From: Desulfobacula toluolica Tol2
Lineage (GTDB): Bacteria; Desulfobacterota; Desulfobacteria; Desulfobacterales; Desulfobacteraceae
Direction of reading: 5' to 3'
Length of the DNA stretch: 64,000 nt
Assembly: GCF_000307105.1 (NCBI RefSeq)
Contig: NC_018645.1
Span: forward strand, 3,557,501 to 3,621,500
Positions 15,756 through 64,000 of the stretch are shown here, in pieces. The position numbers and the translations under genes were made by a program. Within the stretch, counting starts at the first letter, position 1, and each line of letters starts with the position of its first letter. The notes beneath the pieces are model-generated. The model was not told where the DNA came from. It saw only the letters and a program-made list of their open reading frames with translations, and did no database searches.

Positions 15756-15935
15756 TCATTTTTCTGCTTGATACTTGAAACCCGCTTTAATCAATATATC
15801 CTCCAAAATTATCCCAACCTCACCTCTTTTTTTGAGCTCATCAAGCATCCACCGCTGGATGCGGGCATTCACATGAACACGCTTTAGATGTGACGGCAAT
15901 TTCGGTTTTGGTTTTCCTCTATATCCTCCACGCAT
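15756..15935 (-). CDS. Small ribbon-helix-helix DNA-binding protein
   Basis: 59 residues, MRGGYRGKPKPKLPSHLKRV at the start, then a VHVNARIQRWMLDEL...VGIILEDILIKAGF segment. A basic beta strand followed by two helices is the Arc/MetJ ribbon-helix-helix pattern. AAGGAG lies 6 nt before ATG 15935. It is the last phage gene before the IS21 element, and the insertion separates it from the upstream tail genes that would have shared its transcript. Confidence 0.6.
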   Translation of the reverse strand: MRGGYRGKPKPKLPSHLKRVHVNARIQRWMLDELKKRGEVGIILEDILIKAGFKYQAEK

Positions 15936-16065
15936 ACCATCTCCTTTTTAAATAAAAAAACCCGAAAGCCTTGCCATTCAAAGATTATAGATAACCGTAC
16001 AACGCTTTACAAAAAAAATATGTGATTTTCGCATAAAAAAATGGCCGTTTATTATTCATCTGTTT

Positions 16066-16299
16066 TTAAACAGGATTATTATAAAAACCGGTTCTGCCAT
16101 GTGTTAGGCCATGTCGTGATAATATACGCCCAATAGTTCTCACAGAAGGTATTGGCTGGATATTCTCATTCTCCATTTCCTCCCTTATAACCCTGGCGCC
16201 ACAGTGCAGGCCTCTATTGTATAAATGCAGCCGTATCATTTTGACAATTTCTACGAGTTCTTCCCTGGTATATGCTGTTTCCATATCGTGTTCGAACAT
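16066..16299 (-). CDS. Short frame at IS21 end, transposase N-terminus-like
   Basis: 77 residues starting in overlap with the istB stop. The segment LYNRGLHCGARVIREEM...IPSVRTIGRILSRHGLTHGR resembles the helix-turn-helix region that precedes the DDE core in integrase-type transposases (GA..I...L....S..TI.R.L.RHGL). No catalytic domain follows, so it is either a small accessory IS protein or the remnant of a longer transposase gene cut off at the element end. Confidence 0.45.
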   Translation of the reverse strand: MFEHDMETAYTREELVEIVKMIRLHLYNRGLHCGARVIREEMENENIQPIPSVRTIGRILSRHGLTHGRTGFYNNPV

Positions 16300-17048
16300 T
16301 ATCTTGCCTCCTTTTTGGCCTGCTCCATGCGATAGCTCTCAACATTCAATTCAAAGATAATGCTGTGATGAACAAGCCTGTCGATAGCCGCAGCCGTCGT
16401 CATCGGATCTTTAAAAATCTGTTCCCACTTGGAAAAGGGAAGATTGCTGGTGATCATCAGACTGCCTTGCTCATACCGGTCTGCCAGGAAGGTGAACAGC
16501 ACCTCCATCTCTTCCCGGCTTTGCTGGACATATCCGATATCATCGATAATCACGGCATCAAACCTGGAGAGGCTTTTGAGCTTTTTTGTCAACTCAAGCT
16601 CCCTTTTGGCGATCAGCAGCTCCTGAACAAGCTGGCTGCATGAGATGAAAAGGACCTGCTTTCCTTTTGCAATCAATTCATGGCCAATGGCACACAACAG
16701 ATGGGTTTTCCCGCTTCCCGGATTCCCAAAGGCCAAAATATTTTCAGATCGGCTTAAAAAAGAGCCGTCGATCAGTACATTCAAATGATTAGCGACCTTT
16801 ATGGGAAGGCGTTTTTTATCAAAATTTTCAAAGGTCTTTGACGGTGGCAGCTTGGATGCCCTCAGGTTCCGTGCTATCCGGTTTTGCCACCGCACTTCAC
16901 ATTCAAGATTCAGCAGCTGTAAAAGATACTGTTCATACCCCCATGACTCCGCCCGGGCCTGATCTGCCATTTCTTCATAGCTGCGGCGCATGGTCGGCAT
17001 GTGGAGACTCTTGAGATGGTTCATGATCTGGTCATGATCACTCATCAT
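16299..17048 (-). CDS. istB: IS21 family helper ATPase IstB
   Basis: 249 residues. AAA+ ATPase with Walker A GNPGSGKTHLL, Walker B AVIIDDIGYV and a sensor region MITSNLPFSKW. IstB is related to DnaC, loads on target DNA and activates the IstA transposase. It overlaps istA by 4 bp, typical of translational coupling in this family. Confidence 0.95.
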   Translation of the reverse strand: MMSDHDQIMNHLKSLHMPTMRRSYEEMADQARAESWGYEQYLLQLLNLECEVRWQNRIARNLRASKLPPSKTFENFDKKRLPIKVANHLNVLIDGSFLSRSENILAFGNPGSGKTHLLCAIGHELIAKGKQVLFISCSQLVQELLIAKRELELTKKLKSLSRFDAVIIDDIGYVQQSREEMEVLFTFLADRYEQGSLMITSNLPFSKWEQIFKDPMTTAAAIDRLVHHSIIFELNVESYRMEQAKKEAR

Positions 17049-18523
17049 GCTGCCACCTCCTTGAGAAGTTTGTCATAAAGGGTTAAATCAACTGCCGGAA
17101 TATGGATATCATCTGGTCCGGCAACAGGGGCATTGGATTCCATAAGGCGCTGAACCGCATCTTTGCTGATTTCATGGCTTTCGTTTATTAAAACCGTCAG
17201 AGCACTGTCTACAGCCACTTCACTGTCTTTTGCGGCAAGGTATAGAATCTTCAAATATCTTGAGGCAGCGCTTTGAACAGTATAGCGTTCTTTTAAATAG
17301 TCATAGGCAATCCGGAAACGGCTGGTGGGAAACATGGCATCACGATAGCGGTAGTTTTCAAACGCCCTCGGCTTTTTGACCAGGCTGTCAATGATATGCC
17401 GGTAATTGATTTTGTGCTTCCCCTCACCCCGTAACCGTGGCAAGGTGTCGATCTTTTTCTGTCCGTACCAGATTTCCAGACATTCCATGTAAAGACGAAC
17501 CTGTATTTTTTCTCCTATGAGCCTGCTGTTCACTGAGTAGACATTGTGATTGACTCGTATGGTACTGCTGGGACCGACTTTTAAATCCAGTTTTTTACAT
17601 GAGTCGATCCGGCGTTTGGGGAGCCGATGCAGGAGTTCCACTTCTTCTGCAAGGCGGCCTTTTCGGCCGGCATTCAGTTGCCCAAACAACCTGGACAGAA
17701 AACTCTCATACTCTTCCCGGTCTTTAAAATCCCGGTGACCTCTCAATAACAGGGCTTGTTCAACGGCTTTTTTGAACCGGTAATTGCGCTGCTCCACATC
17801 ACCATTTTCATTGGGGCTGGACGGGTTCGTTTTAGAAGGAGTCAGACCGTAATGGTCGACAAGATCCTGATATCTGCGGGTGAACTCTTCCGGGTGGGTC
17901 TCCTTGTTGACAGCGGCAGCCAAGCGATCTGTGCGGTGATGATACGGTACACCGCCCAATTCCCATAAAGCATTTTGCAGGCCCTGGCTCAGGCTTTCAA
18001 AACTCTCGGAGAAACATATGGTACCGGTTTCCCAGTTGGAATAGGTTAAAACAAAATGATAAATCATGTGATCAAAAGGAACGCCGGATATGGTGATGCC
18101 CAGCTCATCCATATGGGTGAAGTCAGACTGGCATAATTCGCCCGGCTTATGAATTTGAGCGAAGAAAATTTCTTTACCCGGTCCTTCTGTTGCCCTCCAA
18201 TGTTTTATCCTCCGTTGCAAGGTCCTCAACTGCCCATCGGCAAATCGGCTTGGCTGGTTTCTTTGAAGATCCTCAAAAATGGTTTTGGCTTCCAACCCCG
18301 GATTTATTGATAACATTCCTTTGATACCATCCCATACGTCTTCAAACGGGTCCTTACGTGTTCTCCAGTTATGCTCCTGTTTAAGTTCGCTTGGCAATTT
18401 GCCCATTTTACGGTACTTTCGAGCCGTTTTTTCATCCATACCTGCTTTCATTGCTGCTATCCCGAAATTTTTTTCAGTTTGAATCAACTTGAATAACCTC
18501 CTCACTTGCTGGTCCGTTACCAT
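17045..18523 (-). CDS. istA: IS21 family transposase IstA
   Basis: 492 residues from ATG 18523, preceded by GAAAGGAGAG. It has an N-terminal helix-turn-helix (ARKYRKMGKLP region) and a retroviral-type DDE core: QSDFTHMD for the first Asp, HRTDRLAAAVN for the second and SPNENGDVEQRNYRFK for the Glu. The frame is intact, so the element may be active. Confidence 0.95.
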   Translation of the reverse strand: MVTDQQVRRLFKLIQTEKNFGIAAMKAGMDEKTARKYRKMGKLPSELKQEHNWRTRKDPFEDVWDGIKGMLSINPGLEAKTIFEDLQRNQPSRFADGQLRTLQRRIKHWRATEGPGKEIFFAQIHKPGELCQSDFTHMDELGITISGVPFDHMIYHFVLTYSNWETGTICFSESFESLSQGLQNALWELGGVPYHHRTDRLAAAVNKETHPEEFTRRYQDLVDHYGLTPSKTNPSSPNENGDVEQRNYRFKKAVEQALLLRGHRDFKDREEYESFLSRLFGQLNAGRKGRLAEEVELLHRLPKRRIDSCKKLDLKVGPSSTIRVNHNVYSVNSRLIGEKIQVRLYMECLEIWYGQKKIDTLPRLRGEGKHKINYRHIIDSLVKKPRAFENYRYRDAMFPTSRFRIAYDYLKERYTVQSAASRYLKILYLAAKDSEVAVDSALTVLINESHEISKDAVQRLMESNAPVAGPDDIHIPAVDLTLYDKLLKEVAA

Positions 18524-18572
18524 CCAAATCTCTCCTTTCATAAGATTTGGCGGCTTTTACCATTTTTTTGAT

Positions 18573-19919
18573 TTATATTTCAGGAATTTTAATTGTCGTT
18601 CGGCGGGTATTATATATGACGCTGATCACAGGTCTATTGTTGATAGTCGCCCATGCTAAAACTTGGGCGCAATTCCCAAAACAAACGCCATTCCCGGACA
18701 TTTTGGCGTTCAAAGAAGATCCGCAAGCACAAATATTTCCAAGCTTGATATCCATAGTGGCTGAGGCCCCAGCGCATTCAGCTGTAACACTTACATCAAA
18801 AGCCGTGTTACCTGCTGTAACAGTGTTTACAGCACAACCCTCAGTAATATATGAAATAACCAAGGTTTGATCACAATATGTAAATGGATCATGAACTGCA
18901 ATTTCGTTACCTTCAAATACACATCCGGTTTTAGACTCATCCCAATAATTATTTTCATGAGCTGCGTCTGTATAAGCCCAGATTCCAACAACGCTTTTTA
19001 TCAGAAATTCGACCGTCACTTTATGATAATTATCAGCATTATAAATTCCACCAGACATCAGATACTCACCTGTGGGGGTATCTGTACTGCCCAAAGTGAT
19101 CCCGTCTTCACACGTCCAATGCACCATGGTGTTATCAGCTATGGCCCCGTCCTGGTCGGACACAAAAGCAAAAATAGTCCCGGTTGATATGCCATCAGCG
19201 GGCAGACAATCCGAATCATCCAGAACAGTTAATTCGACGGAAGTTGATGATTCACTGCCCGCCGAACTAATAAGGATTCTATTCCCCCACTCCGGGTATT
19301 CAATGCTTTCACTAATATCCGCAATATCAATATCAGTGACGGTGTGATCCGCAGCTGCAGGGTGAAAAACATTGTTTCTGATCACAAGTTCCCCGTCCGT
19401 ATTGCACCCAACATACCCACCGGCAAAAGTTGCCAGTTCAGATATCACATCAATGGGATATGCGCTTTCGACCGCATACGATCCCGCATAAACTGTATAA
19501 TCGTCCATCTCAAAGTTGATCGACAGCCCGCACAGGCCCGCCATTTCAGTCATTATGGCGTGGCAAGTTGTATCCAGTCCCCATTCTTTTGATACTTTGA
19601 CTGCAAAAGGAGGCCCAGCTTTTGCTGTTTCAGACCTGCCCCACACTCCCTGGCTCAGTGTTGAATCTGGTGTGGCAGAAACAGGGGGTTGCTCGATATA
19701 AAACATACCCTGTGACACCCAGACATCACCGTTTTTAGTTTTTACTTCCACGCGCAATTGGGGGAAAATTAAAAAATCAAATTGATCATAAAATGAAGGA
19801 TCTGCAGCCGATAATGTCAATTCTCTGGCATAAGCTCCTTTACTTTCCGTGATCTGAAAGCTTTCAATCTGTTCTTTGATTGAAACCCCGTCCAGCAATA
19901 CATCCCAATCCAATGCCAT
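18573..19919 (-). CDS. Phage distal tail / baseplate protein
   Basis: 448 residues. The first 200, MALDWDVLLDGVSIKEQIES then QLRVEVKTKNGDVWVSQGMFYIEQ, resemble distal tail proteins that follow the tape measure in siphophages. The C-terminal 120 residues are Cys-rich (GNICACGSS...GVCFGNC), which may form disulfides or bind metal in the tail tip. The stop at 18573 lies at the IS21 boundary, so the natural C-terminus might have been altered. Confidence 0.6.
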   Translation of the reverse strand: MALDWDVLLDGVSIKEQIESFQITESKGAYARELTLSAADPSFYDQFDFLIFPQLRVEVKTKNGDVWVSQGMFYIEQPPVSATPDSTLSQGVWGRSETAKAGPPFAVKVSKEWGLDTTCHAIMTEMAGLCGLSINFEMDDYTVYAGSYAVESAYPIDVISELATFAGGYVGCNTDGELVIRNNVFHPAAADHTVTDIDIADISESIEYPEWGNRILISSAGSESSTSVELTVLDDSDCLPADGISTGTIFAFVSDQDGAIADNTMVHWTCEDGITLGSTDTPTGEYLMSGGIYNADNYHKVTVEFLIKSVVGIWAYTDAAHENNYWDESKTGCVFEGNEIAVHDPFTYCDQTLVISYITEGCAVNTVTAGNTAFDVSVTAECAGASATMDIKLGNICACGSSLNAKMSGNGVCFGNCAQVLAWATINNRPVISVIYNTRRTTIKIPEI

Positions 19920-33074: not shown

Positions 33075-33199
33075 GGATAACGCTGAGGGTAACGGGCAGC
33101 AAGGGTTTCCAGTAAAATTAATTAAAAGTACCACCGTTCCAAAGTTGTTTCAATATTTAATAAAAAGCCGCCCCTTGCTGTTCGGTTGACCCGTTGGTT
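33075..33199 (-). repeat. attC-like site A of the prophage GNAT cassette (R'' half split by intron)
   Basis: Read on the minus strand, R' is GTTATCC (33075-33081). The inner arm GGGTAACGGGCAGC...GGTTTCC is complementary to the distal CCCTTGCTGTTCGG arm near 33175. The R'' GTT is at 33197-33199 and continues as AGCC after the intron (35131). It is more diverged than the array copies but shares their length and layout. Confidence 0.75.
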
Positions 33200-35130
33200 G
33201 TGTGCCGGGCACGGCACACGTCTTAAGGGTGAGCCTGCATCTTCCTTTATGGAAGTCAAGGCAAGTCCCAAGCCCAGCCAGATGGAGGCGAAGGGCATAG
33301 TGTTATCACAACGGGGTCCCGGTGACGGTACTCCGGAAGGCAGTGGCTTCGCCGAGGCGGAGTGGCACAAAAGTACGGGGTGACGTACAGAAATCGAGTT
33401 AGGCGTGCATTTGCGGGACGAGCCTGCAACACAAGGTAAAGTCCTCTATCCATTATAGGCAATGTCCGTATACTCGGCACCCACGTATTGAAAGACGTGT
33501 GTTTTACCCCGGGAGATCTTCCATGCTGCCCTGGGATGCCGCGTGCGGCAGAAATTGGCTGAGGGCAGGGTAACCTGCTCCGACCGCATGGAAGAAGTCA
33601 GCAGAGGGCATAGTAGCCGCAGGAAAACGAGCCGTGAATTCCACGGAGGACTCACCCCGGTGAAGGCCCGAACGGTGCCCGGACCGAATGGTACGGGTAA
33701 ATGATAGAGACAAATAGGAGGTGTATACTTATGGACATATTGCCACAGCAGATGGAAATGTTCACAGCGTTACAGATCACCGAAAGTCCGACAGAAAGTT
33801 CCCGACTCATGGAGTTTATCCTTGAAAGGGGAAACATGTTCAGAGCATTAAAAAGGGTCCGTAGCAACAAAGGGGCACCTGGAATCGACAACATGACCGT
33901 TGATCAACTACCGGGTTACCTCAGACGCCACTGGCCCAAAGTTAAGGGAAAGTTGCTGCAGGGAAACTACAAGCCATTACCGGTGAAAAGGAAAGAAATT
34001 CCTAAACCCGATGGCGGAGTAAGACTGCTCGGCATTCCAACAGTTTTGGATCGTTTGATCCAGCAAGCCGTCAGCGAGATATTGCAGCAAATATGGGACC
34101 CGCATTTTTCTGAGTCCAGTCATGGATTCAGACCTGGAAGATCCCAGCATGATGCCATACTCCAAGGCAAAGTTTATCTGCTCTCAGGATATACACACTC
34201 TGTTAATATGGATCTTTCCAAATTTTTCGACAGAGTGAACCATGACCGCCTCATGAGCCGTCTGGCTGAAAGAATAAAGGATAAGCGGGTTCTCAAGCTT
34301 ATCCGAAGTTACTTAACAGCCGGTGTCATGATCGACGGGGTGGTTGTATCTGCCGCTGAAGGAACTCCTCAAGGCGGCCCTCTTTCACCAGTGATCTCAA
34401 ATATCGTTTTGGATGAACTGGATAAAGAGTTGGAGAAAAGAGGGCATAAATTTGTCAGATACGCTGATGACTTTGTCATATATCTCAAGAGCAAGAAAGC
34501 GGCCGAACGTGTTATGAAAAGTGTTACACGGTTTATAACCGTAAAGCTCAGGCTCAAGGTCAATGAAGAGAAAAGCAAGGTCAGCCGACCATGGCTGGAC
34601 AAATTTCTCGGCTACACATTTATCAGTATGTGCGGCAAGACCAAGATCCGCATACACCGGAAAACAATCGAGCGCTTCAAAGAAAGGGTTCGAGAATTAA
34701 CAAACCGGAACTGTGGTCTAAGTCTTCCCCAGATCATTGATAAATTGAATATGTACATCAGGGGATGGTGGAATTATTACTGTCTCACCGAAGCAAGACA
34801 CATATTCAAGTCCTTGAACGGCTGGATTATCCGCCGCTTGAGATGTGTTGTATGGAAACAGTGGAAAAATCCCGGAACGAAAATCCGGAACCTGCTTAAA
34901 CGAGGCATACCGTTTCAATATGCCGTCACTTGCGGAAATTCCCGCAAGAAACACTGGCGCATGAGCAGGGTTAAATGGGTTGTCATGGCTCTGCCAAACA
35001 AATATTTCCTTTCTCTTGGATTATTTCTGCCCGGGAACTAATCTGCCTGATCAGCCGAACCGCCGGATACGCGATCCGTATGTCCGGTGGTGTGGGAGGG
35101 CTCCTCAGTGATGGGGGGTCCTATCCCGAT
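33200..35130 (+). mobile_element. Group II intron, copy 1 (group IIC-attC type, 1931 nt)
   Basis: 5' end GTGTGCC, 3' end TCCTATCCCGAT. Domains V-VI are recognisable in 35060-35125 (CGAACCGCC...GGTGGTGTGGGAGG hairpins). It encodes a reverse transcriptase/maturase without an endonuclease domain, as group IIC introns do. It is inserted after the GTT of an attC R'' box, antisense to the GNAT cassette gene. The boundaries were fixed by comparison with the other copies and with uninterrupted attC sites. Confidence 0.93.
33731..35041 (+). CDS. ltrA: Group II intron reverse transcriptase/maturase (copy 1)
   Basis: 436 residues from ATG 33731 (AGGAGG 9 nt upstream). Reverse transcriptase blocks are in order: GAPGIDNMTVDQL, PKPDGGVRLLGIPTVLDR, GFRPGRSQHDA, the TPQGGPLSPVISN block and the active-site YADD in VRYADDFVIY. 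The maturase X domain ends GWWNYYCLTEARHIF...RRLRCVVWKQWK. There is no HNH endonuclease. The protein assists splicing and retrohoming into single-stranded or hairpin DNA. Confidence 0.95.
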   Translation: MDILPQQMEMFTALQITESPTESSRLMEFILERGNMFRALKRVRSNKGAPGIDNMTVDQLPGYLRRHWPKVKGKLLQGNYKPLPVKRKEIPKPDGGVRLLGIPTVLDRLIQQAVSEILQQIWDPHFSESSHGFRPGRSQHDAILQGKVYLLSGYTHSVNMDLSKFFDRVNHDRLMSRLAERIKDKRVLKLIRSYLTAGVMIDGVVVSAAEGTPQGGPLSPVISNIVLDELDKELEKRGHKFVRYADDFVIYLKSKKAAERVMKSVTRFITVKLRLKVNEEKSKVSRPWLDKFLGYTFISMCGKTKIRIHRKTIERFKERVRELTNRNCGLSLPQIIDKLNMYIRGWWNYYCLTEARHIFKSLNGWIIRRLRCVVWKQWKNPGTKIRNLLKRGIPFQYAVTCGNSRKKHWRMSRVKWVVMALPNKYFLSLGLFLPGN

Positions 35131-35157: not shown

Positions 35158-35937
35158 TCATATTTTCACCTGATCGATGAAGAAACCGTTCAGGCAAAGC
35201 CGCACACCTCGATCTTGGGCTTCTTGATATTTTGCCTTGTCTCGATAGAGGACCTTGCCATTGATCAATATTTCAATTACAGGGTCACGACTGCCTTCAT
35301 GAAGGTGGAAGGAAAAGGCTACGCGCTCGGCTAAATGAACCTGTCCATCGGTACTCTGCATGGAACGAGGAGAGAAGCTATCAATAGGTGAAACGTCGTC
35401 GCTCCACTTTCGATCTTCTGGAAAAATGCTAATACGAACTGTTGTGTTGACGCCTTCAGACGGTAGTTGTAAGGGTTTTGTAAGCACCCTATAACCTTGG
35501 GCGTTACGACCGTACTCACCTTCAACCACAGTAAAGCCCATAGACTTCCAAAATGGGATTGAAGACAATGGTTTGCATTCGATTTGAAGCACCATTTCGT
35601 CTTGCTCCAATGCGAGATCAATGCAATGCTCCACAACGAGGCGACCCAAGCCCTTCCCTCTCCAACTGTTTCGAATTTGCAGAATGCCTGATTGAAGCAG
35701 CTGACCCCACTGGTAACCGATAGGAATGCCTTCCATTTTGTCTAATAGGACGAGAAGATTACCTTCTTGATGGCATTGTTTGGTTAAGTTCCAGTTGCAG
35801 AGAAAATTACCGTGAACGCCCTGGCTCTTTTCTTCCTGAAGCCACTCATGAATCCTCGGCATGTCTTCGTCTGTTGACCATCGGATCTCTAATGGCCAGT
35901 TCTTACCATCTATTTTATGAAGAATTGATTTACTCAA
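35158..35937 (-). CDS. GNAT-family acetyltransferase with C-terminal extension (integron cassette gene)
   Basis: 259 residues, TTG start with AGAGGTGATCC upstream. The N-terminal GNAT domain shows the acetyl-CoA loop NSWRGKGLGRLVVEHCIDLA and IPFWKSMGFTVVEGEYG; the substrate is unknown. The C-terminal 110 residues are a separate beta-rich part. Its stop lies 27 bp from the intron and attC A, as expected of a cassette gene. The upstream sequence near 35960 (TTAGCGC on the minus strand) could be the cassette's other boundary. Confidence 0.8.
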   Translation of the reverse strand: MSKSILHKIDGKNWPLEIRWSTDEDMPRIHEWLQEEKSQGVHGNFLCNWNLTKQCHQEGNLLVLLDKMEGIPIGYQWGQLLQSGILQIRNSWRGKGLGRLVVEHCIDLALEQDEMVLQIECKPLSSIPFWKSMGFTVVEGEYGRNAQGYRVLTKPLQLPSEGVNTTVRISIFPEDRKWSDDVSPIDSFSPRSMQSTDGQVHLAERVAFSFHLHEGSRDPVIEILINGKVLYRDKAKYQEAQDRGVRLCLNGFFIDQVKI

Positions 35938-38589: not shown

Positions 38590-38870
38590 GGATCTCCTTG
38601 TGAAAAAATTATTTGATCCCGCTTTTGCCATGTCAAAAACAAAAACGGGTTGAATCTGGTTGACATACCGGCCCACAAGGAAACCGGCGGGTCTTGCGAC
38701 CCCCAGACCCAACCCGCGAATAAACAGGCTGAGACGCGCAACAAAAAAAGCGTCAAAAAAACAGACGCCGTTGCGTCTTGTGGATTCCGGATGTCAAACC
38801 AGATCGTGGATTTTGCCACGATGGGTTCAGCATATCAGAAGCCGGAAATCTGTCAAGACGTTTTTACGCT
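38590..38870 (-). ncRNA. Structured untranslated leader upstream of the Bro-N operon
   Basis: About 280 bp with strong hairpin potential, including GACGCAACGG...CGTC arms and poly-T-interrupted GACGCT/AGCGTC repeats around 38725-38780. Frames through it continue into the gene at 38326 but look non-coding. The arrangement recalls regulatory RNA leaders of P4-like immunity regions. This is a weak structural inference. Confidence 0.3.
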
Positions 38871-53602: not shown

Positions 53603-53729
53603 AACTAACGTTTGGGTAACGGGCGGCAAGGGTTTCCAAAAAAATTAAATGAAAGCACATCATTCAAAAGTTTTTTTAACCTTTAAAAAGAAGGAGACCC
53701 TTACTGTCCGGTTCACACGCTGGTTATCT
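53603..53729 (-). repeat. attC-like site B (uninterrupted)
   Basis: 127 bp. On the minus strand R'' is AGATAAC (53723-53729) and R' is GTTAGTT (53603-53609). Between them GGGTAACGGGCGGCAAGGGTTTCC is complementary to GGAGACCCTTACTGTCCGG with a long central spacer. The only array copy without any insertion, so it serves as the reference for mapping introns. Confidence 0.85.
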
Positions 53730-54778: not shown

Positions 54779-54900
54779 GCTGAACGCTTGGGTAACGGGC
54801 AGCAAGGGTTTCCAATAAAGTTAATTGGAAGCACATCATTTAAAAGTTTTTCAACCTTTAAAAAGAAGGAGACCCTTGCTGTCCGGTTCACCCGCCTGTT
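54779..54900 (-). repeat. attC-like site 2 (split by intron copy 2)
   Basis: R' box on the minus strand GTTCAGC (54779-54785), inner arms as in site B, and R'' GTT at 54898-54900, resuming as ATGC at 56832 after the intron (GTTATGC when rejoined). Belongs to the LysE cassette. Confidence 0.85.
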
Positions 54901-56831
54901 GTGTGCCGGGCACGGCACACGTCTTAAGGGTGAGCCTGCATCTTCCTTTATGGAAGTCAAGGCAAGTCCCAAGCCCAGCCAGATGGAGGCGAAGGGCATA
55001 GTGTTATCACAACGGGGTCCCGGTGACGGTACTCCGGAAGGCAGTGGCTTCGCCGAGGCGGAGTGGCACAAAAGTACGGGGTGACGTACAGAAATCGAGT
55101 TAGGCGTGCATTTGCGGGACGAGCCTGCAACACAAGGTAAAGTCCTCTATCCATTATAGGCAATGTCCGTATACTCGGCACCCACGTATTGAAAGACGTG
55201 TGTTTTACCCCGGGAGATCTTCCATGCTGCCCTGGGATGCCGCGTGCGGCAGAAATTGGCTGAGGGCAGGGTAACCTGCTCCGACCGCATGGAAGAAGTC
55301 AGCAGAGGGCATAGTAGCCGCAGGAAAACGAGCCGTGAATTCCACGGAGGACTCACCCCGGTGAAGGCCCGAACGGTGCCCGGACCGAATGGTACGGGTA
55401 AATGATAGAGACAAATAGGAGGTGTATACTTATGGACATATTGCCACAGCAGATGGAAATGTTCACAGCGTTACAGATCACCGAAAGTCCGACAGAAAGT
55501 TCCCGACTCATGGAGTTTATCCTTGAAAGGGGAAACATGTTCAGAGCATTAAAAAGGGTCCGTAGCAACAAAGGGGCACCTGGAATCGACAACATGACCG
55601 TTGATCAACTACCGGGTTACCTCAGACGCCACTGGCCCAAAGTTAAGGGAAAGTTGCTGCAGGGAAACTACAAGCCATTACCGGTGAAAAGGAAAGAAAT
55701 TCCTAAACCCGATGGCGGAGTAAGACTGCTCGGCATTCCAACAGTTTTGGATCGTTTGATCCAGCAAGCCGTCAGCGAGATATTGCAGCAAATATGGGAC
55801 CCGCATTTTTCTGAGTCCAGTCATGGATTCAGACCTGGAAGATCCCAGCATGATGCCATACTCCAAGGCAAAGTTTATCTGCTCTCAGGATATACACACT
55901 CTGTTAATATGGATCTTTCCAAATTTTTCGACAGAGTGAACCATGACCGCCTCATGAGCCGTCTGGCTGAAAGAATAAAGGATAAGCGGGTTCTCAAGCT
56001 TATCCGAAGTTACTTAACAGCCGGTGTCATGATCGACGGGGTGGTTGTATCTGCCGCTGAAGGAACTCCTCAAGGCGGCCCTCTTTCACCAGTGATCTCA
56101 AATATCGTTTTGGATGAACTGGATAAAGAGTTGGAGAAAAGAGGGCATAAATTTGTCAGATACGCTGATGACTTTGTCATATATCTCAAGAGCAAGAAAG
56201 CGGCCGAACGTGTTATGAAAAGTGTTACACGGTTTATAACCGTAAAGCTCAGGCTCAAGGTCAATGAAGAGAAAAGCAAGGTCAGCCGACCATGGCTGGA
56301 CAAATTTCTCGGCTACACATTTATCAGTATGTGCGGCAAGACCAAGATCCGCATACACCGGAAAACAATCGAGCGCTTCAAAGAAAGGGTTCGAGAATTA
56401 ACAAACCGGAACTGTGGTCTAAGTCTTCCCCAGATCATTGATAAATTGAATATGTACATCAGGGGATGGTGGAATTATTACTGTCTCACCGAAGCAAGAC
56501 ACATATTCAAGTCCTTGAACGGCTGGATTATCCGCCGCTTGAGATGTGTTGTATGGAAACAGTGGAAAAATCCCGGAACGAAAATCCGGAACCTGCTTAA
56601 ACGAGGCATACCGTTTCAATATGCCGTCACTTGCGGAAATTCCCGCAAGAAACACTGGCGCATGAGCAGGGTTAAATGGGTTGTCATGGCTCTGCCAAAC
56701 AAATATTTCCTTTCTCTTGGATTATTTCTGCCCGGGAACTAATCTGCCTGATCAGCCGAACCGCCGGATACGCGATCCGTATGTCCGGTGGTGTGGGAGG
56801 GCTCCTCAGTGATGGGGGGTCCTATCCCGAT
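54901..56831 (+). mobile_element. Group II intron, copy 2 (1931 nt)
   Basis: Same length and ends as copy 1, GTGTGCC to CCCGAT, and identical through the stretches I compared. Inserted between GTT and ATGC of an attC R'' box. Confidence 0.95.
55432..56742 (+). CDS. ltrA: Group II intron reverse transcriptase/maturase (copy 2)
   Basis: 436 residues, the same protein as copy 1 at every position, with intact YADD and maturase domain; start ATG 55432 after AGGAGG. Confidence 0.95.
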   Translation: MDILPQQMEMFTALQITESPTESSRLMEFILERGNMFRALKRVRSNKGAPGIDNMTVDQLPGYLRRHWPKVKGKLLQGNYKPLPVKRKEIPKPDGGVRLLGIPTVLDRLIQQAVSEILQQIWDPHFSESSHGFRPGRSQHDAILQGKVYLLSGYTHSVNMDLSKFFDRVNHDRLMSRLAERIKDKRVLKLIRSYLTAGVMIDGVVVSAAEGTPQGGPLSPVISNIVLDELDKELEKRGHKFVRYADDFVIYLKSKKAAERVMKSVTRFITVKLRLKVNEEKSKVSRPWLDKFLGYTFISMCGKTKIRIHRKTIERFKERVRELTNRNCGLSLPQIIDKLNMYIRGWWNYYCLTEARHIFKSLNGWIIRRLRCVVWKQWKNPGTKIRNLLKRGIPFQYAVTCGNSRKKHWRMSRVKWVVMALPNKYFLSLGLFLPGN

Positions 56832-56854
56832 ATGCCATTGATTTCTGATTCTTT

Positions 56855-57469
56855 TTATTGGTCTGTCATAGCGAGCTTTATTCCAAGTGCTGCAAAGGTG
56901 GCAGCAAAGGTACGTTGTAAACAAATAATGATCCTGGGTGAATTAACTACGTATCTACGAACACCATTTGCCGAAATACCATAAAATATGAATACGACTA
57001 AAGTCATGGCCATGAACATTAAACTGAGAAGAACCATATTTAAAGTTGGCGAGGAAGCATTTGGATTTACAAAAAGAGGTAAGAAAGCTAAAAAAAATAT
57101 AGAAAGTTTTGGATTGAGAATGTTGATCAAAAATCCTCTTCTGACTATTTGCCATAATCCAATCTTTGTTGAAGGCGAGTCGAATTTTAATGAGCCTGTT
57201 TCTCTCCACATAGCCCAAGCTAAATACAACAAATACGCAGCACCTGCTAATTTGATAACTTGGAATGCGAGAGCACTCATATGAATAATAAAAGATAATC
57301 CAAGTATGCTTGCAGATAAATGCGGTATAATTCCTGCTGTGCAGCCAAAAGCAGCCGCAATACTTGCTCGCCAACCAAGGAAAAGGCCATTAGAAATCGT
57401 ATAAATCACCCCCGTACCTGGTATCAGAACAACGACAAGTGACGTTATCAGAAATTCTGTACTAAACAT
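56855..57469 (-). CDS. LysE/RhtB-family exporter (cassette gene)
   Basis: 204 residues with about six hydrophobic segments. VVVLIPGTGVIYTISNGLFLGW then AAAFGCTAGIIPHL is the PGP..G motif region of LysE/RhtB amino-acid exporters (IPGT in place of IPGP). It would move amino acids or related metabolites out of the cell. Its start is 41 bp from the R' box of attC 3, and its stop is 23 bp from the intron end at attC 2. Confidence 0.88.
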   Translation of the reverse strand: MFSTEFLITSLVVVLIPGTGVIYTISNGLFLGWRASIAAAFGCTAGIIPHLSASILGLSFIIHMSALAFQVIKLAGAAYLLYLAWAMWRETGSLKFDSPSTKIGLWQIVRRGFLINILNPKLSIFFLAFLPLFVNPNASSPTLNMVLLSLMFMAMTLVVFIFYGISANGVRRYVVNSPRIIICLQRTFAATFAALGIKLAMTDQ

Positions 57470-57509
57470 TTTATTTTCTCCTTAAGCATATGTGACTTTT
57501 GATACACGG

Positions 57510-57631
57510 GTATAACGCTTGGGTAACGGGCAGCAAGGGTTTCCAATCAGTTGATTAAAAGCACATCATTCAAAAGTTTTTTCAACCTTTAAAAAGAAGG
57601 AGACCCTTGCTGTCCGGTTCACCCGCCTGTT
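57510..57631 (-). repeat. attC-like site 3 (split by intron copy 3)
   Basis: R' GTTATAC (minus strand of 57510-57516), conserved arms, and R'' GTT at 57629-57631 with ATAC after the intron (59563-59566). Belongs to the lipoprotein cassette. Confidence 0.85.
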
Positions 57632-59562
57632 GTGTGCCGGGCACGGCACACGTCTTAAGGGTGAGCCTGCATCTTCCTTTATGGAAGTCAAGGCAAGTCC
57701 CAAGCCCAGCCAGATGGAGGCGAAGGGCATAGTGTTATCACAACGGGGTCCCGGTGACGGTACTCCGGAAGGCAGTGGCTTCGCCGAGGCGGAGTGGCAC
57801 AAAAGTACGGGGTGACGTACAGAAATCGAGTTAGGCGTGCATTTGCGGGACGAGCCTGCAACACAAGGTAAAGTCCTCTATCCATTATAGGCAATGTCCG
57901 TATACTCGGCACCCACGTATTGAAAGACGTGTGTTTTACCCCGGGAGATCTTCCATGCTGCCCTGGGATGCCGCGTGCGGCAGAAATTGGCTGAGGGCAG
58001 GGTAACCTGCTCCGACCGCATGGAAGAAGTCAGCAGAGGGCATAGTAGCCGCAGGAAAACGAGCCGTGAATTCCACGGAGGACTCACCCCGGTGAAGGCC
58101 CGAACGGTGCCCGGACCGAATGGTACGGGTAAATGATAGAGACAAATAGGAGGTGTATACTTATGGACATATTGCCACAGCAGATGGAAATGTTCACAGC
58201 GTTACAGATCACCGAAAGTCCGACAGAAAGTTCCCGACTCATGGAGTTTATCCTTGAAAGGGGAAACATGTTCAGAGCATTAAAAAGGGTCCGTAGCAAC
58301 AAAGGGGCACCTGGAATCGACAACATGACCGTTGATCAACTACCGGGTTACCTCAGACGCCACTGGCCCAAAGTTAAGGGAAAGTTGCTGCAGGGAAACT
58401 ACAAGCCATTACCGGTGAAAAGGAAAGAAATTCCTAAACCCGATGGCGGAGTAAGACTGCTCGGCATTCCAACAGTTTTGGATCGTTTGATCCAGCAAGC
58501 CGTCAGCGAGATATTGCAGCAAATATGGGACCCGCATTTTTCTGAGTCCAGTCATGGATTCAGACCTGGAAGATCCCAGCATGATGCCATACTCCAAGGC
58601 AAAGTTTATCTGCTCTCAGGATATACACACTCTGTTAATATGGATCTTTCCAAATTTTTCGACAGAGTGAACCATGACCGCCTCATGAGCCGTCTGGCTG
58701 AAAGAATAAAGGATAAGCGGGTTCTCAAGCTTATCCGAAGTTACTTAACAGCCGGTGTCATGATCGACGGGGTGGTTGTATCTGCCGCTGAAGGAACTCC
58801 TCAAGGCGGCCCTCTTTCACCAGTGATCTCAAATATCGTTTTGGATGAACTGGATAAAGAGTTGGAGAAAAGAGGGCATAAATTTGTCAGATACGCTGAT
58901 GACTTTGTCATATATCTCAAGAGCAAGAAAGCGGCCGAACGTGTTATGAAAAGTGTTACACGGTTTATAACCGTAAAGCTCAGGCTCAAGGTCAATGAAG
59001 AGAAAAGCAAGGTCAGCCGACCATGGCTGGACAAATTTCTCGGCTACACATTTATCAGTATGTGCGGCAAGACCAAGATCCGCATACACCGGAAAACAAT
59101 CGAGCGCTTCAAAGAAAGGGTTCGAGAATTAACAAACCGGAACTGTGGTCTAAGTCTTCCCCAGATCATTGATAAATTGAATATGTACATCAGGGGATGG
59201 TGGAATTATTACTGTCTCACCGAAGCAAGACACATATTCAAGTCCTTGAACGGCTGGATTATCCGCCGCTTGAGATGTGTTGTATGGAAACAGTGGAAAA
59301 ATCCCGGAACGAAAATCCGGAACCTGCTTAAACGAGGCATACCGTTTCAATATGCCGTCACTTGCGGAAATTCCCGCAAGAAACACTGGCGCATGAGCAG
59401 GGTTAAATGGGTTGTCATGGCTCTGCCAAACAAATATTTCCTTTCTCTTGGATTATTTCTGCCCGGGAACTAATCTGCCTGATCAGCCGAACCGCCGGAT
59501 ACGCGATCCGTATGTCCGGTGGTGTGGGAGGGCTCCTCAGTGATGGGGGGTCCTATCCCGAT
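57632..59562 (+). mobile_element. Group II intron, copy 3 (1931 nt)
   Basis: Full-length, same ends as copies 1 and 2, inserted at the same R'' position of attC 3. Confidence 0.95.
58163..59473 (+). CDS. ltrA: Group II intron reverse transcriptase/maturase (copy 3)
   Basis: 436 residues, identical in sequence to copies 1 and 2; start ATG 58163 after AGGAGG, intact YADD site. Confidence 0.95.
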   Translation: MDILPQQMEMFTALQITESPTESSRLMEFILERGNMFRALKRVRSNKGAPGIDNMTVDQLPGYLRRHWPKVKGKLLQGNYKPLPVKRKEIPKPDGGVRLLGIPTVLDRLIQQAVSEILQQIWDPHFSESSHGFRPGRSQHDAILQGKVYLLSGYTHSVNMDLSKFFDRVNHDRLMSRLAERIKDKRVLKLIRSYLTAGVMIDGVVVSAAEGTPQGGPLSPVISNIVLDELDKELEKRGHKFVRYADDFVIYLKSKKAAERVMKSVTRFITVKLRLKVNEEKSKVSRPWLDKFLGYTFISMCGKTKIRIHRKTIERFKERVRELTNRNCGLSLPQIIDKLNMYIRGWWNYYCLTEARHIFKSLNGWIIRRLRCVVWKQWKNPGTKIRNLLKRGIPFQYAVTCGNSRKKHWRMSRVKWVVMALPNKYFLSLGLFLPGN

Positions 59563-59630
59563 ATACACTTGAAATAAAATGAATGTATATTGATAAAAAC
59601 CTATGGCATAATTTTCTAAAATAGTTGCTA

Positions 59631-60170
59631 CTACCTTGAAGCAGTTAATTCAACGATATGTTTTGCCGCCTCTTGGACCAAAACATTTCTAGCCTTATCA
59701 GCTCCCTGCAAAGTCGTGGCACCTCCATATTCGTTATTAAACCCGACTTCCAGCCCTGTAAAACGCTCTTGACCTTCCATCTCTGCAAATACTTTCCCGT
59801 CTGATGAAATGTATTTCGCAGTATAAATCAAAGACCCTCGACCAGCGCCAAACCCGATAATGAGCCTCGCCGCTGCATTCCCAGGAGAGAAAGTCTTCAC
59901 ATCAACGGCAAGAGTCATCCCTTCTTTTTCATCATCGATATCAAAACCTGCAATGATCAATTTCGCTTTCAAGTACTTCTCTAAATCATGCAGCAACCTA
60001 TCATCCACGCCTTGCCCAGCTCCATTAATGTGTATTTCAGATATGTTATTTGAAATTGATGCCAGATTACCTGATGGGGCTTGAGCGATATGCTTTGTTG
60101 AACATCCAGTTACCAGTACAACTGCAATAAAAATAAAAAATATTGCTTCTCGATATTTGTTCCTTCTCAT
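59631..60170 (-). CDS. DUF4410-like outer-membrane lipoprotein (cassette gene)
   Basis: 179 residues from ATG 60170 (AAGGAGG 6 nt upstream). Signal peptide with lipobox IAVVLVTGC, Cys at about position 23. The mature part has DLEKYLKAKLIIAGFDI then AARLIIGFGAGRGSLIY...TGLEVGFNNEYGG...KARNVLVQEAAKHIVEL, a DUF4410-type pattern. Function unknown. The start lies 15 bp from the R' box of attC C, typical of a cassette. Confidence 0.75.
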   Translation of the reverse strand: MRRNKYREAIFFIFIAVVLVTGCSTKHIAQAPSGNLASISNNISEIHINGAGQGVDDRLLHDLEKYLKAKLIIAGFDIDDEKEGMTLAVDVKTFSPGNAAARLIIGFGAGRGSLIYTAKYISSDGKVFAEMEGQERFTGLEVGFNNEYGGATTLQGADKARNVLVQEAAKHIVELTASR

Positions 60171-60184
60171 GATGCCTCCTTCAT

Positions 60185-60307
60185 GTATAACGATTGGGTA
60201 ACGGGCGGCAAGGGTTTCCAATAAAGCTCGTTGAAAGCACATCATTCAAAAGTTTTTTCAACCTTTAAAAAGAATGAGACCCTTGCTGTCCGGTTCACCC
60301 GCTGGTT
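60185..60307 (-). repeat. attC-like site C (split by IS91-like element)
   Basis: R' GTTATAC (minus strand of 60185-60191), conserved arms; the R'' GTT is at 60305-60307. The matching flank GTTATGC appears at 62703-62709 beyond the IS91-like element, so the site was interrupted within or next to its R'' box. Confidence 0.85.
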
Positions 60308-60435
60308 CAAGTAAGCCGCTACGCGGCAGATTAAGCCGTATCATCATTGTTCAATTCCATTGCTCATGGTATCTTGTTACCGGCTTGCAGGTCGGTATCT
60401 TCACCCGACAAGGTTAAAGAAAAAAGGAAGATACC

Positions 60436-61311
60436 ATGAGCAATTTAATCAAACGTTTTAAAGAAGATCTCCAACTTGCCGGTTATGCAAAAAGGAGCAT
60501 TCAATCCTATACCAGTTCGGTTTTAAGACTACAGCGCTTTTACAATAAACCATTAGAAGATATCACTGAAGAACAGCTCCGTCAATACTGGCTTTGCTGC
60601 CAGAATGAATTCGGCTGGAGCGCTGCTACTCTGCGGATCAGTTACTCTGGTATTCAGCATTTTTTTACCAAAACGCTGGTCCGGTCCTGGAACATTTTCA
60701 ACGACATCAAATGGAAGCGTGAGCAGACCTTACCGACTATTCTGAGTCTGGAGGAAGTCAGAAAGATTATTTATGCCCTTCCCACTGTGCAAAGTCATGC
60801 ATTTTATTTGACATTATATTCCATGGGACTGCGTTTAAGGGAGGCAACAACACTTCAGGTCAAAGATATTCTTTCCGACAGGGGACTTGTGCATATTCAC
60901 GGTGGAAAGGGTGCCATGGACAGGACGGTGCCTTTACCCAAAATAACCCTGTTGACGTTGCGCAAATACTATAAAACCCATCGCAATTCAAAATGGATAT
61001 TCCCTGCTTTGGGCCGCAATGGCGGTAAGGACGCTCAATATGCCAAAAATCATGTCAGTGACAGTGGGGTTCAAGGCGTTTTGCGATCTACTTTGAAACG
61101 CCTGAAGTTTAAAAAACATGTTCACCCTCATGTCTTCCGCCATGCCTATGCGACGCATTTGCTGGAAGCTAATATCCCCATACGCCATGTGCAAAAAATA
61201 TTAGGCCATAAAACCCTTAAAAGCACCATGATTTATCTGCATGTGACCACACAGGCCCAAGTTGATTCCAATGACAAAGTTTCCAAAGTCATGCAGGGGG
61301 TGTTGTCATGA
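60436..61311 (+). CDS. Tyrosine recombinase (IS91-associated, XerC-like)
   Basis: 291 residues. N-terminal SAM-like DNA-binding domain, then catalytic residues: SMGLRLREATTLQVKD (first Arg), HVFRHAYATHLLEANI (HxxR), ILGHKTLKSTMIYLHVT (His and Tyr). Found upstream of several IS91-family transposases as an accessory gene; its role may be circle resolution. It is not an integron integrase: there is no intI-specific patch. Confidence 0.9.
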   Translation: MSNLIKRFKEDLQLAGYAKRSIQSYTSSVLRLQRFYNKPLEDITEEQLRQYWLCCQNEFGWSAATLRISYSGIQHFFTKTLVRSWNIFNDIKWKREQTLPTILSLEEVRKIIYALPTVQSHAFYLTLYSMGLRLREATTLQVKDILSDRGLVHIHGGKGAMDRTVPLPKITLLTLRKYYKTHRNSKWIFPALGRNGGKDAQYAKNHVSDSGVQGVLRSTLKRLKFKKHVHPHVFRHAYATHLLEANIPIRHVQKILGHKTLKSTMIYLHVTTQAQVDSNDKVSKVMQGVLS

Positions 61312-62393
61312 GTGCTGTTCAAAAAATCTTCCAAATGTATGGGCCGAAATATCTGACACTTTATGGAGATCGAATGCCGAAGTCTCATAAAAAAACCATA
61401 CGGGATATCAGTGCCTGCAGAAAGGGTTCCTTTGGAACAATGGTGTATGAATGTGATGACTGCCGTAATCTGCATTTTATTCACTGCTGCTGCGGCAATC
61501 GTCATTGTCCCAACTGTCAGCAGAGTAAAGCGGACCAATGGCTGGATCAGCAGATGAAAAAGCTGCTGCCGACCTATTATTTCCTGTTAACCATTACACT
61601 TCCCCAGGGCCTGCGGGATGTTGTAAGGTCTCATCAAAAATTATCTTATGGTGCCCTGTTTTCATGCACCAATGAAGCCCTGAAAAAACTGGCACAAGAT
61701 ACACGGTTTATCGGATCTGATCGAATCGGATATCTGGCAGCCCTCCACACATGGGGCGGCATGCTTCAGTATCATCCACATTTGCATATAATAATTCCCG
61801 GAGGTGCTTTATCTGATAATGACCAATGGCTTTCTTCCAGACAGGATCTGTTTGTTCACACAAAACCTCTGGCGGTCATTTTTAAAGCCAAATTCAAAGA
61901 TGCCATAAAAAAAGCCGGGCTGCTCGATAAAATTGATTCCGCAGTATGGAAACAGCAATGGGTGATTGACAGCCAGGCCGTGGGGCAGGGACAAAATTCC
62001 CTGCGCTATCTTTCAAGATATGTGTTCCGGGTTGCCATCTCCAATAATCGTATTAAAAGCATTGAAAATGGCGTCATCAAATTTTTGTATAAAGACCGTG
62101 AAAAAAAGAAGTGGAAAACTATGGCATTGGATGCCATGGAGTTTATCCGACGGTTCTTGCAGCATGTTCTTCCCAAAGGGTTTATGAAAATTAGACATTA
62201 TGGATTTCTCAATCCCAACAGCGCATTGTCCATAGAAAAAATCCGTGAACTCATCTCATTCATCCATGACATTATTGCTCTTTTTATTAAAATCCCGGAA
62301 CTTGAAATACCGGGTATTAAATGCAGCCATTGCGGGCATGATTTGAAATTTATTTTCTTTGCAAAGCCGGAACCAAGAGGCAGGCCCGGATAA
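61308..62393 (+). CDS. IS91-family HUH transposase
   Basis: 361 residues. N-terminal zinc binding CDDCRNLHFIHCCCGNRHCPNCQ, HUH motif YHPHLHIIIPGG, and a catalytic Tyr region SLRYLSRYVFRVAISNN. Rolling-circle transposase that nicks one end (oriIS). Overlaps the recombinase stop (ATGA). Intact frame. Confidence 0.93.
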   Translation: MSAVQKIFQMYGPKYLTLYGDRMPKSHKKTIRDISACRKGSFGTMVYECDDCRNLHFIHCCCGNRHCPNCQQSKADQWLDQQMKKLLPTYYFLLTITLPQGLRDVVRSHQKLSYGALFSCTNEALKKLAQDTRFIGSDRIGYLAALHTWGGMLQYHPHLHIIIPGGALSDNDQWLSSRQDLFVHTKPLAVIFKAKFKDAIKKAGLLDKIDSAVWKQQWVIDSQAVGQGQNSLRYLSRYVFRVAISNNRIKSIENGVIKFLYKDREKKKWKTMALDAMEFIRRFLQHVLPKGFMKIRHYGFLNPNSALSIEKIRELISFIHDIIALFIKIPELEIPGIKCSHCGHDLKFIFFAKPEPRGRPG

Positions 62394-62653
62394 CTTCACA
62401 AAACTGACTACCCGGTGTTGCTCGACTTTAAAAACAGCCTGATAAATGACTATCGACATGCTTCAGTATCCGTACGCCAAATTGACGGTATTTTAATTTT
62501 TGACCTGGGTTTTAAGGGCTGAAAACGACCTGAATTTTGATTTTTACATCAGGATAAAGGCCATCTTTTGATATTTTAATCACATCTTGTCATAAACACA
62601 TCCAGCAAATCGTTAACCTTTCCCCCTATTGATCCGCGGCTTCTTGAACCATA
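62394..62653. other. Non-coding 3' part of the IS91-like element
   Basis: About 260 bp between the transposase stop and the end hairpin; no gene seen. Confidence 0.6.
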
Positions 62654-62695
62654 GGATTAGTACCGAGCCTCGTGCCTCGGCACGGTTACTAATCC
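62654..62695. repeat. Terminal hairpin of the IS91-like element (oriIS candidate)
   Basis: GGATTAGTA (62654-62662) pairs with TACTAATCC (62687-62695), with a further CCG/CGG after a 1-nt bulge. It ends 7 bp before GTTATGC. Confidence 0.7.
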
Positions 62696-62703
62696 TTTAT
62701 TTG

Positions 62704-62931
62704 TTATGCGGTTTTGTTTGTTCTATGTCCTATTAGACCGTGCCAATATCCTTTTAATCTATTTTTAAGTTTATGCCTGCAATCATCGCAGAATGCTGGA
62801 AGATTTGGCATGTTAGTTTTTTCCCTTACCCATATTAGATCAGATGTCGATCTACGATTAAGTAACTCACCGCAATCATCACAGTAGATCTGTGAAAACA
62901 CTTGTTTTTTCTTTTTATATTTTTTACTCAT
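62704..62931 (-). CDS. Small double zinc-ribbon protein (cassette gene)
   Basis: 75 residues. CDDCGELLNRR and FCDDCRHKLKNRLKGYWHG give two CxxC pairs, likely one zinc site, with basic ends. Its TAA stop overlaps the R'' box GTTATGC of attC C. Function unknown. The ATG lacks a strong ribosome site. Confidence 0.65.
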   Translation of the reverse strand: MSKKYKKKKQVFSQIYCDDCGELLNRRSTSDLIWVREKTNMPNLPAFCDDCRHKLKNRLKGYWHGLIGHRTNKTA

Positions 62932-63093
62932 TAATATCCTTAACGTATTATTTTAAACTGAGGGCTATCATTTTAAGCTAGAACACCCCGTAGAATAAGG
63001 ATCTTCTGAAAGGGCTTGTTTCTGAGGCTTACACGCTGAAAGATTCTCATCTATCGGTTCAAACTGTCCCGCTTTAGTCAGTAGCTAAGCTGA

Positions 63094-63216
63094 GCATAAC
63101 GCTTGGGTAACGGGCAGCAAGGGTTTCCAAAAAAGTTAATTGAAAGCACATCATTCAAAAGTTTTTTCAACCTTTAAAAAGAAGGAGACCCTTGCTGTCC
63201 GGTTCACCCGCCTGTT
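63094..63216 (-). repeat. attC-like site 4 (split by intron copy 4)
   Basis: R' GTTATGC (minus strand of 63094-63100), conserved arms, R'' GTT at 63214-63216. Its cassette gene lies beyond the window and the intron. Confidence 0.85.
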
Positions 63217-64000
63217 GTGTGCCGGGCACGGCACACGTCTTAAGGGTGAGCCTGCATCTTCCTTTATGGAAGTCAAGGCAAGTCCCAAGCCCAGCCAGAT
63301 GGAGGCGAAGGGCATAGTGTTATCACAACGGGGTCCCGGTGACGGTACTCCGGAAGGCAGTGGCTTCGCCGAGGCGGAGTGGCACAAAAGTACGGGGTGA
63401 CGTACAGAAATCGAGTTAGGCGTGCATTTGCGGGACGAGCCTGCAACACAAGGTAAAGTCCTCTATCCATTATAGGCAATGTCCGTATACTCGGCACCCA
63501 CGTATTGAAAGACGTGTGTTTTACCCCGGGAGATCTTCCATGCTGCCCTGGGATGCCGCGTGCGGCAGAAATTGGCTGAGGGCAGGGTAACCTGCTCCGA
63601 CCGCATGGAAGAAGTCAGCAGAGGGCATAGTAGCCGCAGGAAAACGAGCCGTGAATTCCACGGAGGACTCACCCCGGTGAAGGCCCGAACGGTGCCCGGA
63701 CCGAATGGTACGGGTAAATGATAGAGACAAATAGGAGGTGTATACTTATGGACATATTGCCACAGCAGATGGAAATGTTCACAGCGTTACAGATCACCGA
63801 AAGTCCGACAGAAAGTTCCCGACTCATGGAATTTATCCTTGAAAGGGGAAACATGTTCAGAGCATTAAAAAGGGTCCGTAGCAACAAAGGGGCACCTGGA
63901 ATCGACAACATGACCGTTGATCAACTACCGGGTTACCTCAGACGCCACTGGCCCAAAGTTAAGGGAAAGTTGCTGCAGGGAAACTACAAGCCATTACCGG
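63217..64000 (+). mobile_element. Group II intron, copy 4 (cut by window end)
   Basis: Starts with GTGTGCC as the other copies; the first 784 nt match them apart from an A for G at 63831 (GAG to GAA, silent). Confidence 0.93.
63748..64000 (+). CDS. ltrA: Group II intron reverse transcriptase/maturase (copy 4, partial)
   Basis: The first 84 codons, identical to copies 1-3 at protein level; continues beyond the window. Confidence 0.93.
   Translation, partial: MDILPQQMEMFTALQITESPTESSRLMEFILERGNMFRALKRVRSNKGAPGIDNMTVDQLPGYLRRHWPKVKGKLLQGNYKPLP

Follow-up and report, generated by a model that had tools for sequence, protein, structure and literature searches.

Group IIC-attC introns of the S.ma.I2 type combine a IIC ribozyme with a reverse transcriptase (RT) that lacks an endonuclease domain. 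They insert into the R'' box of the attC bottom strand, antisense to the integron cassettes and, according to the available text of the published accounts, also occur in CALINs and at other hairpins nearby (PMC7923331, PMC8876359). The consensus target given there for the majority of these introns is TTGT/T (IBS1/IBS3; PMC7923331). In a IIC structure, as far as the available account describes it, the first base beyond the insertion site is held by one EBS3–IBS3 pair, A with dT (PMC10190682). S.ma.I2 has been reported to silence downstream cassettes, with an outward promoter restoring expression (review excerpt, PMC8876359). Introns that repeatedly home onto introns are found in the twintrons of bacteria and archaea, and the nested introns of Methanosarcina have been described, in the accessible parts of these reports, as a perpetual homing site (PMC4424553, PMC4649490). 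The intron described here is a group IIC-attC intron, as a variant with a shifted target. It shares with the S.ma.I2 type its ribozyme class, its protein architecture and its orientation at attC, but differs in being present as 23 insertions in one genome, some in head-to-tail stacks. Unlike the published TTGT/T type, it inserts after TGTT or GGTT and before A, G or C, and carries EBS1 AACA and EBS3 U. Whereas one intron lies inside another in twintrons, the copies here join the end of one to the start of the next and leave both uninterrupted.

The window, a 64-kb stretch of the Desulfobacula toluolica Tol2 genome, holds four copies of this intron (Table 1). A sequence-only reading had placed four near-identical group IIC introns at the GTT of attC R'' boxes, antisense to the cassettes, with exact boundaries and 1931 nt in each of the three complete copies, and this description is borne out. 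The three complete copies are identical letter for letter over their 1931 nt. The copy at 63217 has one difference from the reference in its 784 nt inside the window (position 615); it is complete in the genome, where it shows three differences over 1931 nt. All four are preceded by GTT and begin with GTGTG, and the complete copies end in CCCGAT, in agreement with the GUGYG and RAY termini of group II introns. Rfam models for Domains I–IV score above gathering (RF02001, 93 bits; RF01998, 40.8 bits), and the Domain V/VI model RF00029 stops exactly at the intron end, 56831, with 35.5 bits, under its gathering score of 40. The intron protein is an open frame with the same sequence in the three complete window copies, and its only Pfam domains over 446 aa are PF00078 and PF08388; a Pfam search found no endonuclease domain. 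The presence of RT and maturase domains without an endonuclease domain places the intron in class IIC, as had been proposed. Within its cassette the intron lies between the gene and the attC stem, antisense to the cassette. The assignment of one copy to a prophage also holds: the 33200 copy sits with a lone attC and a GNAT gene, flanked on one side by a phage portal gene and on the other by genes for anti-repressor, terminase and primase. Separately, a C4 antisense RNA (RF01695, 57 bits) lies at window positions 38645–38717 on the minus strand, upstream of the prophage anti-repressor gene. A C4 antisense RNA upstream of an anti-repressor is an arrangement known from P1-like phages.

Table 1. 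Features of the intron and its surroundings in the 64-kb window (window positions; attC sites as seen on the intron strand)
Feature	Position	Strand	Basis or remark
Solitary attC in prophage, ends GTT/	33086..33199	+	nhmmer attC profile, 87.6 bits
Group IIC intron, complete, 1931 nt	33200..35130	+	Same as 54901 copy; Rfam RF02001, RF01998
Intron-encoded RT/maturase, 446 aa	33701..35041	+	ORF list
Cassette gene, GNAT acetyltransferase-like; its attC holds the intron of 33200	35158..35937	-	Pfam
Empty attC, same family (GTT/ATCTTT)	53608..53725	+	nhmmer, 116.9 bits
attC, ends ...CCTGTT/	54784..54900	+	nhmmer attC profile; folds
Group IIC intron, complete, reference copy	54901..56831	+	1931 nt; Rfam models
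EBS1 (AACA), Domain I loop	55129..55132	+	Alignment with relatives; RF02001 hairpin loop
EBS3 candidate (T/U)	55172..55172	+	Varies with register in relatives; RF02001 alignment
Intron-encoded protein, RVT_1 + GIIM	55402..56742	+	Pfam
Cassette gene, LysE-type translocator	56855..57469	-	Pfam
attC, ends ...CCTGTT/	57515..57631	+	nhmmer attC profile
Group IIC intron, complete	57632..59562	+	Same as reference copy
Intron-encoded RT/maturase, 446 aa	58133..59473	+	ORF list
Cassette gene, DUF4410 protein	59631..60245	-	Pfam
attC, ends ...CTGGTT/, filled by IS91-like element	60190..60307	+	nhmmer attC profile
IS91-like element at GTT of attC	60308..62707	+	Tyrosine recombinase 60436–61311, Y2/IS91-type transposase 61308–62393
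attC, ends ...CCTGTT/	63099..63216	+	nhmmer attC profile
Group IIC intron, cut by window end, continues to genome 3622647	63217..64000	+	

In the whole genome, searched as a single contig of 5,197,905 bp with the best 40 of 52 candidates scored, there are 23 insertions, comprising 22 complete copies and one copy in two pieces. A pattern count of intron starts gives 24, the 23 insertions and one broken relative. All 23 belong to three cassette regions, the prophage copy at 33200 among them. The first region is an array beside an integron integrase at 2.36–2.44 Mb (TIGR02249, 405 bits against a cut-off of 265), the second lies at 3.05–3.09 Mb with a second integrase close by at 3.036 Mb, and the third is the window's own cluster, beside which no integrase was seen in the stretches read. 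Eleven of the 22 complete copies, the query included, are identical, and the remaining 11 carry between one and five differences each, in keeping with the very recent movement suggested earlier. The split copy is interrupted by a 2,355-bp insertion (genome 2428965–2431319) with an 8-bp duplication; the same 2,355-bp stretch also occurs, identical, at genome 3626735–3629089 and 3630905–3633259. The broken relative, of 74–76% identity and in two pieces at genome 3085214–3090205, is of the TTGT/T type, with EBS1 ACAA and EBS3 A, and is flanked by TTTGT on its 5' side and T on its 3' side. The DNA breaking it is about 3 kb long, and 2.7 kb of that is also present at window positions 15920–18628. 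No relative of the intron protein was found in the viral contigs searched.

The sequence upstream of each of the four window copies, read on the intron strand, is an attC bottom strand of about 117 nt that forms a long bulged hairpin with GTT at the insertion point. Two of these attC, folded as single-stranded DNA on the intron strand, give long hairpins with z-scores of -3.7 and -4.8, none of 200 shuffles being as good. The four insertion sites folded all contain the hairpin, the remaining sites having been judged by inspection. The site family is that of an integron: an integrase lies beside the main array, and the sites are bulged palindromes with RYYYAAC/GTTRRRY outer boxes, although the boxes are only loose matches in some. 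One VCR-like attC family precedes 16 of the 19 non-stacked insertions. By this context and the folds, the insertions have a hairpin upstream of a short IBS1 in place of an IBS2, a class IIC feature. In all, the 23 insertions consist of 16 directly at main-family attC, one at a short attC-like hairpin, two behind the 3' end of an IS91-like element and four stacked. Thus 20 of the 23, the 16 direct and the four stacked, are at main-family attC, in R'' of the bottom strand and antisense. The copy at 3047319 is preceded by a shorter hairpin of the same plan, by eye an attC of another type.

At least 37 near full-length main-family attC were counted, 35 in the regions read and two more among the best 40 of 78 candidates scored, a 28-nt fragment being excluded. 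Sixteen hold the intron, five an IS91-like element (one a remnant) and 16 are empty. The uninterrupted sites had been used to fix the empty pattern and do belong to the same family, one ending at 53725 in the window and others beyond it. The proposal that the intron had spread through a whole array thus stands for the spread, with 23 insertions in the genome, and falls for the whole, the array not being filled throughout. A search of the rest of the genome for further copies and empty sites had also been proposed, with differing ends, or copies mainly outside attC-like hairpins, as grounds for abandoning the reading; neither was found. Occupancy varies with the first base after GTT. Among sites not filled by an IS, the intron is present at 15 of the 25 with A or G and at one of the seven with C (p = 0.04).

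It is very unlikely that the intron spread as a passenger of integrase-driven cassette duplication instead of by retrohoming. IntI could move the intron, since it sits inside the cassette, integron integrases are present, and some of the cassettes appear in two arrays. However, the final 3' flanks are distinct in 19 of 19 cases, even over 8 nt, and so point to separate insertion events; one cassette end that carries the intron has a related counterpart that lacks it (83% identity, 3636444 versus 3637030); and two copies sit behind an IS91-like end.

The target of the intron departs from the published TTGT/T consensus. Once stack and split joints are removed, the 19 copies of the genome follow TGTT or GGTT and are followed by A in 12, G in six and C in one, with T in none. 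By contrast, among 12 close-relative copies from other genomes aligned in full, the 3' joint is readable in 11 and has T in all 11, with TTGT on the 5' side in ten and GGGT in one. A Serratia plasmid intron, whose 5' part was read by eye, also has T as its first 3' exon base, as in the published type. The D. toluolica intron and relatives in three genomes (G226, G299 and G105) use a target one base further on, with TGTT or GGTT ahead of the intron. Alignment of Domain I reveals two changes that track this register. The EBS1 loop reads TGC-ACAA-CAAG in one register and TGC-AACA-CAAG (one variant CAAT) in the other, and the second register-linked base is A or T within CGTA(A/T)A. This base is the EBS3 candidate, as it is register-linked and lies in the same region as EBS3 in the available description of the IIC structure (PMC10190682). 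GGTT sites pair with EBS1 at only three of four bases.

The association extends to a wider set of loci, in which 68 of the 389 genomes from the class have an intron-start match among the matches listed. With the D. toluolica genome left out, 148 raw rows were reduced to 117 and then to 115 by dropping own-5'-palindrome, short and repeat rows; by EBS1 these are 28 ACAA, 31 AACA, 42 unreadable and 14 with another reading. Among the matches listed, ACAA introns insert after GT in 27 of 28 rows and have A at EBS3 in 28 of 28. AACA introns insert after GTT in 28 of 31 rows, the exceptions being one stack, one mixed site and one GGTC, and have T at EBS3 in 24, C in one and an unread base in six; rows in either register share ancestry and do not count as independent. 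In a tree of 19 proteins, of which some are partial, an ACAA intron (L050) nests with the D. toluolica intron inside the AACA group, so that at least two register changes are needed. A third target class is seen at three loci (L131, L196 and L212), where a 5' exon ending TTTTGTG/ meets a fully complementary EBS1, CACA.

These observations are probably accounted for, insertions and stacks alike, by retrohoming to a site that can be targeted again after a one-base shift of register. The intron would retrohome into the folded attC bottom strand, recognising the hairpin, a 5' IBS1 of TGTT or GGTT and one 3' base. Paired changes of EBS1 from ACAA to AACA and of EBS3 from A to U would set its register one nucleotide downstream of the TTGT/T type. 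A U at EBS3 is expected to pair with A and to wobble with G, and the intron itself starts with G; a filled site would therefore still be usable, with the hairpin, the IBS1 and a tolerated +1 base all in place. The next copy could then reverse-splice between the attC and the resident copy, leaving an exact head-to-tail stack with the older copy presumably downstream. An EBS3 A would instead face G at a filled site and should fail. Counter to this scheme are one intron of the genome at a C, one AACA row with EBS3 C and the incomplete pairing of GGTT sites with EBS1.

Four copies in the genome begin exactly at the end of another, with zero bases between. They form a stack of two at 2360759–2364620, a stack of three at 2395510–2401302 and a stack of two at 2409197–2413058. 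Such stacking fits insertion that is blind to occupancy. With 20 insertions on 37 sites, a blind model which counts IS-filled sites as available predicts 15.6 distinct sites (15.0 on 32 sites) and 16 are observed, while 20 distinct sites, the outcome of full protection, have a probability of 0.0016. Insertion of a ready-made tandem in one event, from a dimeric intron RNA or from RT reading a circular intron twice, seems unlikely. The two copies at 2360759–2364620 are identical, as it would predict, but the other two stacks are of mixed sequence, with the reference joined to a 615A/1197T/1474A haplotype (2409197–2413058) or three different haplotypes following one another (the triple). Outgroup bases leave most between-copy differences without polarity; only at 2409197–2413058 does the downstream copy carry a change that is clearly derived, and that of the triple stack has none.

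Exact stacks also occur outside this genome. One (G226) consists of two intact AACA copies; in another (G247) an AACA remnant of 622 nt comes first, and the second copy has EBS3 T and an EBS1 not read as AACA. These bear on the view that stacks arose by homologous recombination, gene conversion or repeat mis-assembly rather than by re-insertion, which appears quite improbable. In its favour, the arrays are crowded with identical introns and IS copies, and gene conversion could have shuffled the recurring between-copy differences. A crossover between introns of different cassettes should, however, leave cassette DNA between the copies, an exact end-to-start joint gives no common sequence to recombine at, and the joint is present in three genomes between copies that differ. 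For re-targeting, the comparison of registers, taken alone, is weak evidence. Among the matches listed, stacks are found in 5 of 54 AACA rows (4 of 23 in D. toluolica and one in G226) and in 0 of 28 ACAA rows, all with EBS3 A (p = 0.12), or in 1 of 31 and 0 of 28 when the D. toluolica genome is set aside (p = 0.53), in counts that leave out the G247 stack and whose rows share descent. A second sample, 395 genomes from the phylum including 17 already covered, gave no further clear stack and one match with three mismatches (G569).

Several candidate stacks were rejected: in G010 the match lies inside a coding frame, in G242 the hit proved to be a normal exon end (TATACTGTT), and in G209, G212 and G021 the neighbouring copies do not abut. 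One further joint (G161, L229, reverse strand at about 2388) has the 3' end of a IIC-like intron, a single T and then an AACA intron, apparently the pattern expected if two introns had used both registers at one site.

The IS1111-attC group consists of IS elements with attC as their target. Here too a second kind of mobile element occupies attC, but it is IS91-like, with a Y2-type transposase, and inserts at the very base used by the intron. The genome holds nine full copies and remnants, and GTT precedes the intact left end in 10 of 10 cases; by site, five of these are main-family attC, three are short attC-like sites by eye and two are unclear. At one gene end, ATCTGAT(T/C)AGTTC, the intron is inserted before it at 2381793 and the IS at 2366293, at the same base. 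Two intron copies directly follow an IS91-like 3' end. For these the intron may have occupied GTT first, with the IS later inserting in front of it, or it may have targeted the IS end; the former is a serious though tentative possibility. It draws on the constant GTT at IS left ends, GTT followed by the intron being equally usable, and is opposed by the hairpin and TTTGTT at the IS 3' end itself and by an intron start behind like sequence in a genome of the same genus. That start (G222, L133, minus strand 620) comes right after sequence resembling the IS91-like 3' end.

A simple sigma-70 scan for an outward promoter in the intron gave one site, lying on the intron's own strand, against 3.6 expected by shuffling, which says little. 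Neither end-to-start IIC stacks nor a one-base register shift was reported in the open literature at the level of titles and abstract openings, a body outside which the key IIC-attC papers lie, and priority is not thereby established.

Homing elements are usually expected to protect their own site by splitting it. It is plausible, if still tentative, that the target-site immunity of IIC introns amounts to one base pair, EBS3–IBS3, and that a one-base shift together with EBS3 U abolishes it, so that the site would renew itself and stacks would accumulate, the register having changed at least twice. A natural pair of variants, one base of register apart, may thus separate self-limiting from self-renewing insertion. 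Furthermore, attC sites are landing pads common to a retroelement and an IS91-like transposon, at the same base, and this shared landing base is relevant to the filling, silencing and reshuffling of cassette arrays.
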